Source: Prochlorococcus sp. AG-418-C09
GTDB taxonomy: Bacteria > Cyanobacteriota > Cyanobacteriia > PCC-6307 > Cyanobiaceae
Length of the DNA: 33,115 bases
Direction of reading: 5' to 3'
NCBI GenBank assembly: GCA_003214355.1
Contig: QCLS01000012.1
Coordinates: 1 to 33,115, forward strand
The notes beneath the pieces are model-generated. The model was not told where the DNA came from. It did not search any database and saw only the letters and a list, made by a program, of their open reading frames with translations. Both the position numbers and the translations under genes were made by a program. Shown here one piece after another: positions 30,509 to 33,019 of the stretch (positions are counted from its first letter, which is position 1; the number at the start of each line of letters is the position of its first letter).

Positions 30509-31945
30509 TTAGATCATTTCTAGACATTTTCTAACTCGTTTCTTATCTTCTCCATTTAATGCAAATAGCTCCCAACTGAGAATTAGATCTGGTCCTTTTA
30601 GCGATCCAAATAAAGCCACTCGTAAAGATCTCATCACTAAACCTTTCTTGATATTGTGCTCTTTCGCAATACTATTTAAAGCTTCTTTAGCAGAATTCTG
30701 ATTAATTTCTGGGTTCTTAGAATCTAAATATTCTATGATATGTTTTATCGACATTTTTACTTCGTCGTTTTTCAAGAACTGCATGGCATCTGGTTCAAAT
30801 TGTGATGTTTCAAAGAAAGGCTTAGATTGATCAACAACATCTTTCAATACTGTTATTGATTCTTGTAGTAGTGAGGTTAATTTCAAACCCCAAACATTAG
30901 ATGATGAATACCAGCCTTCTTTTTCCCAGTATTCCTTAAAGATAGTGTGCAATTTATCTTTCTTCATTGTTTTTATATATTGACTATTGATCCAATTAAG
31001 TTTTTCCCAACTAAACTTTGCACCTGATTTGTTTACATTTTCTAAATTAAAGTTTTTTGAAATATCAATTAAAGAGCAAAGTTCTCCTTCTCCAGTTTTA
31101 GGAGACCAACCTAAAAGAGCCATATAGTTAGATAATGCTTCGGGCAGATATCCCATTGTCTTAAAATCATCAATTGATGTTACACAATCACGCTTTGAAA
31201 GTTTCTTCCCATCACTGTTAAGGATCAAAGGAGTATGAGAAAAGACAGGTAAATTAAATCCCAGGGACTTGTAGATGAGAATTTGTTTCGCAGTATTTGA
31301 AATATGATCTTCTCCTCTAACAACATGAGTGATTCCCATGAAATTATCATCGACTACAACGGCTAAGTTATAAAGAGGTTCTCCAATTTCATAACCGAAT
31401 GCGCGCCGAGATAAAACCATATCCCCACCAAGATCTTTGCCTAACCATTTAATCTTTCCCCTTATTAAATCATTCCACTCAATAATTATCTCTTCTTCAA
31501 TTCTAAATCTGATAACTGATGATTTCCCTTCAGATATGAATCTTTCTATTTCTTTTTTCGTGAGATTTCTATGCCTATTATCATGTTTTGGTGGTAACCC
31601 ATTCAATTTCTGTTCATTTCTGAGTATTTTACTTTCTTCCTCTGTTGTAAAACATCTATAGGCAAAACCTTTTTGGAGAAGTTTATTAATAGTCGATTTA
31701 TGAATTTCGATTCTTTTACTTTGTTTAATTGGCTCTTCGTCCCAATCTAAACCTAACCATCTTAATCCATCTAAAATATTATTAGTAAATTCTTGTTTTG
31801 AGCGATTGCTGTCTGTATCTTCTATTCTTAAAAGGAATTTACCTTGAGTTTTTTTTGCATATAACCAATTAAACAGGGCAGTTCTTGCAGTGCCTATGTG
31901 TAATAAACCTGTTGGACTAGGAGCTAATCTTAAACGGTTTTCCAA
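30509..31945 (-). CDS. gltX: Glutamyl-tRNA synthetase
   Basis: GltX charges tRNA-Glu; in cyanobacteria it is also expected to mischarge tRNA-Gln for later amidation by GatCAB. The 478-residue class I enzyme has the HIGH-type motif [10 protein letters not shown] at 9-18 and the KMSKS-type motif KLSKR at 248-252. Its length is normal. The start is TTG at 31945, which is needed to keep the first strand before APSPTG. The gene begins 18 bases after tRNA-Asp on the same strand, so the tRNA may be cut from a shared precursor. Glutamyl-tRNA also feeds tetrapyrrole synthesis. Confidence 0.96.
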
Positions 31946-31963
31946 CTTAAATAGTTAAAAGAA

Positions 31964-32037
31964 CGGGACCGACGGGATTCGAACCCGCAACTTCCGCCGT
32001 GACAGGGCGGTGCTCTAACCAGTTGAACTACGGTCCC
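31964..32037 (-). tRNA. tRNA-Asp (GTC)
   Basis: The minus strand folds as a 74-base tRNA. The acceptor GGGACCG pairs with CGGTCCC, with discriminator G. The anticodon stem CCGCC/GGCGG holds the loop CTGTCAC with anticodon GTC, and GCGGG-TTCGAAT-CCCGT forms the T arm. CCA is not encoded. It lies 18 bases upstream of gltX. Confidence 0.96.
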
Positions 32038-32188
32038 AAGTTTAGTTGAAAATTTCTCTATTCAACCACTATAAATTATCAGATAGTGAAGCTCAAATAA
32101 TGTTGTTGTAATAAAAAAATTGGATTTTCTGCAAATTAATAAAAATTTTTAGATTGAACTAAATAATATAAATTAATTCTTGTTGGGA

Positions 32189-32377
32189 TTACGGTCTAAA
32201 GCCTGCCGGCTCAATAAGACGGACTTGGTTCCCTCTGGCAGTGAATTCTCTGCCTTGATCACTTTGAACAACAACTCGACCTCCAGATTTTACTCTGATT
32301 ACCCTTGCACGTACCCATCCAAGAGCGGCTGATTCAAGCACTTTTACAACATCGCCTGGTTGAAGATCTAGCTCCAT
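32189..32377 (-). CDS. 62-residue conserved protein, possibly SH3/KOW-like
   Basis: The small protein reads as a compact beta-barrel, with a PGDVVKVLES strand at 7-16, WVRARVIRVKSGGRVVV in the middle and FTARGNQVRLIEP near the end. Glycine-rich turns and alternating valines are typical of SH3-like or KOW folds found in ribosome- or nucleic-acid-associated proteins. I do not recognise a named family. The coding stretch is visibly richer in G and C than the rest of the window, and the protein is rich in Arg, Val and Gly rather than Lys, Ile and Asn. It lies between tRNA-Asp and tRNA-Trp, all on the minus strand. Confidence 0.72.
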   Translation of the reverse strand: MELDLQPGDVVKVLESAALGWVRARVIRVKSGGRVVVQSDQGREFTARGNQVRLIEPAGFRP

Positions 32378-32416
32378 CTCAAAAAAAAGTTAAATTACAA
32401 AAAGTTGGTTTCTTAA

Positions 32417-32489
32417 CGCGCCGTGGAGGACTTGAACCCCCGACATCAGGTTTTGGAGACCTGCGTTCTACCAACTGAACTAACGGCGC
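32417..32489 (-). tRNA. tRNA-Trp (CCA)
   Basis: The minus strand folds as a 73-base tRNA. The acceptor GCGCCGT pairs with ACGGCGC, with discriminator G. The anticodon stem CAGGT/ACCTG encloses CTCCAAA with anticodon CCA, and GGGGG-TTCAAGT-CCTCC forms the T arm. The terminal CCA is not encoded. It lies between rplS and the 62-residue gene. Confidence 0.95.
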
Positions 32490-32545
32490 ATTAGGTTTAT
32501 TATAAGCGCCTGTTCAACCCCATAGGTTGTTTATACTTTACAACT

Positions 32546-33019
32546 CTAACGGTCGAAACGTTGTTTAACGCGTGTAGCTTTACCTACTCTATCTCTTAAA
32601 TAGAAAAGTTTAGCTCTTCTTACTTTACCTCGACGTTCAACTTTTAGAGAGGCAACTTGAGGACTATGTAGCATAAATATTCTTTCCACACCAATACCCT
32701 GGAAGATTCTTCTTACAGTTATTGTCTGATTCAGCCCCCCGTGCCTTTTTGCAATAACAACACCTTCATAAGGCTGGACTCTCTCTTTGTTACCTTCTGT
32801 AATCTTTACTCCGACTTTAACTGTATCACCCACATAAATTGAAGGTAATTCTTTTTTTATTTGAGAGTCTTCAAAATCCTTTAACAAATCAATACTTAAT
32901 GCGCTGTACTTTGACTTGGCACTTTCTTTCTTTAAATCTTTAGAAGCTACTGACTTATCGCTATCTTCTTTATCAGAGATAGTGGCCTCGATATCATCCT
33001 TTTTAATTTCTTTTGCCAT
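32546..33019 (-). CDS. rplS: 50S ribosomal protein L19
   Basis: L19 sits at the 30S-50S interface. From ATG 33019 the protein has 157 residues; a TTG at 33034 could add five more, but AAAAGG just before the ATG supports the shorter form. The L19 core starts at about residue 50 ([16 protein letters not shown]) and contains [22 protein letters not shown] and the basic end [13 protein letters not shown]. An extra charged N-terminus of about 45 residues ([18 protein letters not shown] and more) is not part of the usual bacterial protein. It lies 27 bases downstream of another gene on the same strand. Confidence 0.94.

Follow-up and report, generated by a model that had tools for sequence, protein, structure and literature searches.

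PSHCP, the Prochlorococcus/Synechococcus Hyper Conserved Protein, was described in 2014 (PMC4215834) from Prochlorococcus, marine Synechococcus and Cyanobium as a strongly conserved protein whose gene has rpl19, trnW, trnD and gltX as neighbours. It was characterized there as basic and abundant, with an amount on the order of that of RbcL; its transcript follows those of translation genes under limitation for nitrogen and for phosphorus, and a homologue with 89% identity is present in the Paulinella chromatophore. Pull-down experiments of the same study recovered ribosomal protein L2, PsaD, and a Ycf48-like protein. The structure of the protein was solved as a Tudor domain (PDB 6NNB). Why PSHCP is frozen within a clade in which other proteins diverge freely has long been puzzling. 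Tudor domains of the PHF1, PHF20 and TDRD3 type read methylated lysine or arginine, whereas PSHCP binds RNA; according to a structure paper published in J Biol Chem in 2019, it reportedly prefers tRNA, which is bound around Lys-30 and better than DNA. The KOW domain of NusG is an SH3-like barrel as well, and MutS2, a large ATPase of which the KOW domain is only a part, resembles PSHCP in having such a barrel and sits on ribosomes (collided disome, 8r55).

The window analyzed here, i.e., the whole stretch of 33,115 nucleotides from contig QCLS01000012.1 of Prochlorococcus sp. AG-418-C09, contains on its minus strand an ORF of 62 codons plus stop with an ATG start (32189..32377). Its product matched the 6NNB sequence over residues 1–56 with an E-value of 2.4e-31 (phmmer, solved-structure sequences); the second-best chain gave an E-value of 0.21. 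Searches of NCBIfam and PHROGs returned a single weak hit each (E-values of 0.2 and 0.24), and SH3-like Pfam families appeared below threshold only, with SH3_1 (PF00018) scoring 22.0 bits against a cut-off of 22.9 over no more than residues 2–28. The gene is real, and its product is PSHCP. Since this protein was described in 2014 (PMC4215834), the finding as such is already known, and the window protein shows no difference from the published PSHCP (6NNB and the available parts of PMC4215834). PSHCP is remarkable but described; the site of its origin and a conserved block at the start of its gene are two side observations worth follow-up.

The preliminary description had placed a GC-richer gene of 62 codons between two tRNA genes, close to gltX and rplS. 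This observation was confirmed; the ORF list and ARAGORN show gltX and rplS on the outer sides of the two tRNA genes. All features lie on the minus strand: upstream of the PSHCP gene are rplS (ribosomal protein L19; 32546..33019, ATG at 33019), tRNA-Trp (CCA; 32416..32490) and an AT-rich leader of 38 bases that extends from tRNA-Trp to the ATG and has no clear Shine-Dalgarno run (32378..32415), and downstream are tRNA-Asp (GTC; 31963..32038) and gltX (glutamyl-tRNA synthetase; 30509..31945, listed with a TTG start). Both tRNA genes were called by ARAGORN and by Rfam RF00005. The gene names rplS and gltX are those used in PMC4215834 and in the preliminary description; the window ORFs found matches in 22 (58–75% identity) and 23, respectively, of 23 genomes from other cyanobacterial families.

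An identical ATG together with both tRNA neighbours recurred in 125 of 130 distinct loci, most of which had been fetched because they encode PSHCP, and the other five reach the contig end on the side without the tRNA gene; this recurrence places the ORF far beyond chance. The distance between tRNA-Trp and the ATG ranged from 32 to 46 bases (128 loci). On the other side of the gene, two loci (L048, L052) showed gaps of 1162 and 1179 bases towards trnD, with an ORF of about 300 aa inside, on the reverse strand, that presumably encodes a LysR-type regulator, and gaps of >450 bases were also seen at L066, L072, L093 and L095.

When 60 genomes of relatives were searched, 32 matched PSHCP, all from the same genus as the window. 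These correspond to 32 of the 37 same-genus genomes (own genome included), the five without a match being only 51–81% complete, and to 13 of 13 same-genus genomes with a completeness of at least 90%. A class-wide draw of 388 genomes gave matches in 64, all of them in the window's family (f1), which record names identify as picocyanobacteria, and none in the genomes outside that family; no f1 genome lacking PSHCP was found among the unmatched genomes listed (all but 304 in this draw). Within the genomes sampled, PSHCP was universal in, and confined to, the picocyanobacteria. Weak PSHCP-like hits outside f1 (E ≤ 1; 34 of 116 genomes) were treated as chance: the best of them (G079, E = 0.007) runs across stop codons, and two from one family (G099, G051) lie opposite to ORFs of 266 and 241 aa. 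One contig assigned to a ‘Bifidobacterium breve’ MAG (L107) carries an identical PSHCP flanked by trnW and trnD, and is probably a mis-binned cyanobacterial contig.

The protein was 100% identical in 30 of the 32 matches among relatives and in 62 of the 64 class-wide matches, and 98% identical in the others. A scan of genome contigs likewise gave 100% identity for the best 80 of 363 relatives, which, having been chosen as the best, are unusable for counting variants. For the analysis of selection, 149 PSHCP loci remained after removal of duplicates, 140 of which had PSHCP, rplS and gltX all present; since most of the 149 had been fetched as best matches, 62 of 64 is the fairer figure for identity. 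All 62 residues were common to 145 of the 149 loci. Among these 145, 54 carry a C-terminal extension of two residues (QK), in line with the two-residue variation at the C-terminus mentioned in PMC4215834. L185 and L186 end in FSSP in place of FRP, and the sole substitution outside the C-terminal tail was E56Q in two loci of the window's genus (L183, L184). Across the 140 loci, the mean pairwise amino-acid difference was 0.0014 for PSHCP as opposed to 0.171 for rplS and 0.346 for gltX, with similar differences at fourfold sites (0.599, 0.596 and 0.646, respectively). Except at the start of the gene, the constraint acts on the protein, which is under very strong purifying selection, and the freezing of PSHCP is confirmed in a larger genome sample. 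Of the two causes that the preliminary description had offered for the unusual composition of the gene, strong selection was borne out by these values.

The other, recent acquisition, was not. On this view, PSHCP would be a small gene, transferred or mobile, that had recently entered the genome by integration at one of the tRNA genes. Its placement between two tRNA genes would suit this reading, tRNA genes being usual places of integration, but the presence in 13 of 13 near-complete same-genus genomes, the constant location in 125 of 130 loci (the others reaching contig ends) and the high divergence at synonymous sites argue against it. Moreover, neither 50,697 phage nor 72,556 plasmid records contained a match at E ≤ 1, and viral contigs yielded no confirmed relative. 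Recent transfer is refuted by these observations, and we consider a mobile origin of this kind extremely unlikely; an insertion long ago, when f1 arose, may nevertheless have occurred.

The high GC content noted in the preliminary description does stand out: the PSHCP gene has a GC content of 0.476, compared with a mean of 0.337 (sd 0.033) in 31 other, mechanically chosen window ORFs with a length of 100 aa or more, and with 0.327 for the whole window. The argument built on composition mostly failed, as GC at third positions is ordinary (0.279 vs 0.233, sd 0.040, in the 31 ORFs), the values for the first and second codon positions being 0.721 and 0.459. Recoding of PSHCP with the codon usage of the window gave a GC3 of 0.225 (sd 0.051) and a total GC content of 0.442 (sd 0.018); the observed values were attained by 18.5% and 1.6% of recodings, respectively. 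Since recoding with local codon usage already yields 0.442, amino-acid composition accounts for most of the excess, and there is a slight preference in addition.

The compact SH3-like barrel that had been read from the letters, with no mention of PSHCP by name, was borne out by the solved structure. A single-sequence AlphaFold2 model showed a five-stranded barrel (strands at residues 10–15, 20–29, 34–39, 44–48 and 52–56) with a pLDDT of 85.7 and a pTM of 0.70; pLDDT of the five models ranged from 85.7 down to 50.1. In a Foldseek search with this model, 6NNB was the sole hit at E ≤ 0.001, with 100% identity across 56 aligned columns. The top eleven rows of VIA-align were Tudor-domain proteins (PHF1, PHF19, PHF20, TDRD3 and MTF2) with Z scores of 9.2–9.5 and rmsd values of 1.0–3.4 over 50–59 residues, 6NNB itself ranking 45th (Z 8.1), although rows not more than 1 Z apart count as tied and a shared barrel is no proof of function. 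Model, Foldseek and VIA-align agree on a Tudor fold. The Tudor domains of PHF1, PHF20 and TDRD3 (Z 9.2–9.5) are the same kind of barrel as PSHCP, with sequence identities of about 19–26% for PHF20 and TDRD3 and 14–16% for PHF1 in the top rows. Further down, archaeal Spt4/5 entries reached Z scores of up to 8.4, and residues 636–688 of MutS2 on collided ribosomes (8r55), which we take to be its KOW domain, gave a Z score of 8.2 and an rmsd of 1.8 over 53 residues at 24% identity.

As for its function, PSHCP most likely is a basic stand-alone Tudor barrel that holds tRNA via a positive face on or near the large subunit and serves translation, a reading that we regard as probable. The positively charged face of the five-stranded, SH3-like barrel would hold the tRNA and keep it at the large ribosomal subunit or close by, thereby aiding translation, so that tRNA binding and ribosome contact would be one job. 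Were nearly all of its surfaces in contact with a partner conserved to the same degree, be it tRNA, rRNA or L2, near-total invariance of the protein would be the expected consequence. The translation-linked role proposed in the preliminary description appears plausible on account of the tRNA, rplS and gltX neighbours, the tRNA binding ascribed to PSHCP and the published pull-down of L2 (PMC4215834). However, the tRNA neighbours may merely mark the birthplace of the gene.

The authors of the 2014 study hypothesized that PSHCP is a ribosomal protein (PMC4215834). A clade-specific protein of this kind would reside permanently on the 50S subunit near L2 and prop rRNA helices, its tRNA binding being a by-product of charge. 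The pull-down of L2 in all three strains, the non-compensatory 23S changes, some of them near L2, in PSHCP-bearing cyanobacteria (both PMC4215834) and the location of the gene beside rplS speak for this possibility. On the other hand, while 7–11% of transcripts reach the 3′ end of rplS, those comprising all of rplS and pshcp amount to <2% (PMC4215834), and we hold a permanent ribosomal role to be possible but clearly the less likely one.

The Tudor fold does not fix the partner, as Tudor and SH3-like barrels bind many things. PSHCP might also link the ribosome to photosystem assembly by passing nascent thylakoid proteins via Ycf48 and PsaD, which we consider rather unlikely; to our knowledge, neither PsaD nor Ycf48 is confined to PSHCP-bearing cyanobacteria. 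Such a role fits as well in that PsaD and Ycf48-like peptides were present in all three pull-downs (PMC4215834), a result repeated in a review (PMC4823308), but the Ycf48-like protein was represented by one unique peptide per strain, and many proteins were identified in the pull-down (PMC4215834).

The locus order in other families bears on the origin of the gene. In 48 of 53 rplS loci (22 + 4 + 27) from other cyanobacterial families, the next mapped feature after rplS was trnW; of the five without trnW, one holds just 108 bases downstream. What followed trnW was nusG in 28 loci, trnD in six, and neither within the stretch in the remaining 14. Thus, nusG occupies in 28 of the 53 loci the position at which PSHCP stands in f1, which raises the possibility that PSHCP is the freed KOW domain of a resident protein, i.e., of NusG, L19 or MutS2. 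Spt5 and MutS2 chains among the structural matches, the matched parts of which we take to be KOW domains, point in the same direction, and so do profile scores: with the MutS2 KOW profile, built from 17 rows (an antisense ORF, L279, and a masked row, L287, being left out), PSHCP scored 8.4 bits, a value reached by 7 of 4588 scored shuffles, and with the NusG KOW profile 5.2 bits, reached by 14 of 4349 (11 of 1746 in another set). These scores are small, however, and shuffles are a weak null for barrels with a common GD-V-V pattern. The main MutS2 KOW stretch aligns out of register with PSHCP, no sequence relation to MutS2 clearly exceeds chance, the likeness to NusG consists of a short GD-V-V stretch with an unconvincing score, and the score of PSHCP with the RplS profile was reached by 165 of 1913 scored shuffles. 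Besides, a full nusG gene is retained elsewhere in the own genome, on another contig with a small ORF before it and further ORFs after it; we take these to be a secE-like ORF and ribosomal-protein-like ORFs, respectively, the group lying behind what is presumably a Clp-like ATPase gene. Judged by profile scores against shuffles, NusG, RplS and MutS2 are not supported as parents of the barrel, and descent from a resident KOW domain appears very unlikely.

The six loci with trnD after trnW belong to families f10 (L142, L239, L240, L241) and f11 (L141, L238), and all six loci examined from these families show the order rplS-trnW-trnD without PSHCP; gltX comes next in four of the six, namely the f10 loci. 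In two more f10 genomes, rplS had no match. The trnW-trnD spacers of the six loci measure 116–390 bases and contain no PSHCP-like ORF (best tblastn E-value of 0.43). In a tree of rplS, NusG and gltX, f1 joined its one f11 genome with a support of 97, and both next joined one f10 plus one f8 genome with a support of 91; the tree comprises 24 rows, is unrooted, lacks NusG in three of the four f1 rows and has poorly supported deeper nodes. The order rplS-trnW-trnD without the gene suggests that the spacer between the tRNA genes was there before PSHCP, which probably originated in it or moved into it. In the simplest reading, the trnW and trnD neighbours came first and the gene would have appeared once, arising or inserting in their spacer at the base of f1, the alternative being loss from f10 and f11. 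The story is not a simple one, because the f8 genome that groups with f10 (L154) has trnW followed by neither trnD nor nusG within the stretch. The available description in PMC4215834 does not include the empty trnW-trnD site, which may be new. The tRNA-tRNA locus that lacks PSHCP in the related families f10 and f11 offers a place to test the birth of the gene.

A further feature of the gene concerns its first 20 bases, i.e., ATG, codons 2–6 and the next two bases (32358..32377, minus strand). Codons 2–6 read mostly GAG TTR GAT CTW CAA in loci whose GC content ranges from about 33% to 71%. Codon 2 is GAG in all 77 low-GC loci and in 70 of the 72 high-GC ones, compared with 9, 6 and 16 uses of GAG at codons 15, 44 and 56 in the same 77 low-GC loci; codon 4 is GAT in 72 of 77 and 72 of 72, and codon 3 is TTA or TTG in all 72 high-GC loci, the window copy having the minority form CTA (2 of 149). 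Relative to codons of equal degeneracy, codon diversity was 0.06, 0.15 and 0.44 at codons 2, 4 and 6, as compared with a minimum of 0.67 (sd 0.14) in the 53 later codons, and in 30 chosen genomes the segment of codons 2–6 was the lowest (0.34) of 56. The mean ratio over codons 2–8 was 0.49 for PSHCP vs 0.94 for rpsG and 1.09 for rpsL; no such dip occurred at the start of rpsG (30 of 30 genomes) or of rpsL, which was recognized by pattern in only 20 of the 30, 15 of them GC-rich. Six gltX codons showed no dip either (0.89–1.17), a weak control with nine usable codons. Relatedness of the loci means that these counts are not independent; each genome, however, provides its own control. Codons 2–6 are conserved at the nucleotide level, which is true neither of the remainder of the gene nor of the starts of rpsL and rpsG. 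The block was not found in the available description of PSHCP in PMC4215834 and may be new; as a nucleotide-level start signal, it is testable with a reporter.

Compared with synonymous recodings, the PSHCP start is less structured (mean z of 1.57 for 15 GC-rich loci and of 0.89 for 15 GC-poor ones), as are the starts of rpsG (1.25 and 0.94) and rpsL (0.85 in 15 GC-rich and 0.35 in five GC-poor loci), and GAG at codon 2 makes the start more structured than GAA would. Low folding alone was rejected as the cause of the block on both grounds. The principle of low structure at starts without a Shine-Dalgarno sequence (PMC3121790) agrees with the AT-rich codons of GC-rich loci, whereas GAG does not conform to it. 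Another candidate cause is a nearly leaderless mRNA, since a promoter is predicted 12–14 bases before the start codon (PMC4215834). Pairing of the start with the 16S tail had no consistent place in a scan of eight genomes, and a reading as an NtcA-like GT-N10-AC site was discarded, the window copy lacking the motif because of CTA at codon 3.

The start may form a small hairpin that covers part of the AUG, but support for it is poor. With CTT at codon 5, the 20-mer folds at -3.5 kcal/mol; CTC, for which better pairing is expected, occurs in 0 of 149 loci, and leader plus start folded less than most shuffles in four of four sequences (z of 0.95 to 1.92). Several ribosomal proteins regulate their own synthesis. 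PSHCP might do likewise, with its first six codons as an operator: it would bind its own conserved start segment, which could form a small hairpin that includes part of the AUG, and control its own synthesis. Birth of the gene in the trnW-trnD spacer would then have yielded a newborn protein that is both frozen and self-regulated; we consider this reading unlikely. The exact 18-base start motif also occurs in six viral contigs (L327–L332), at about the frequency expected by chance according to a rough estimate.
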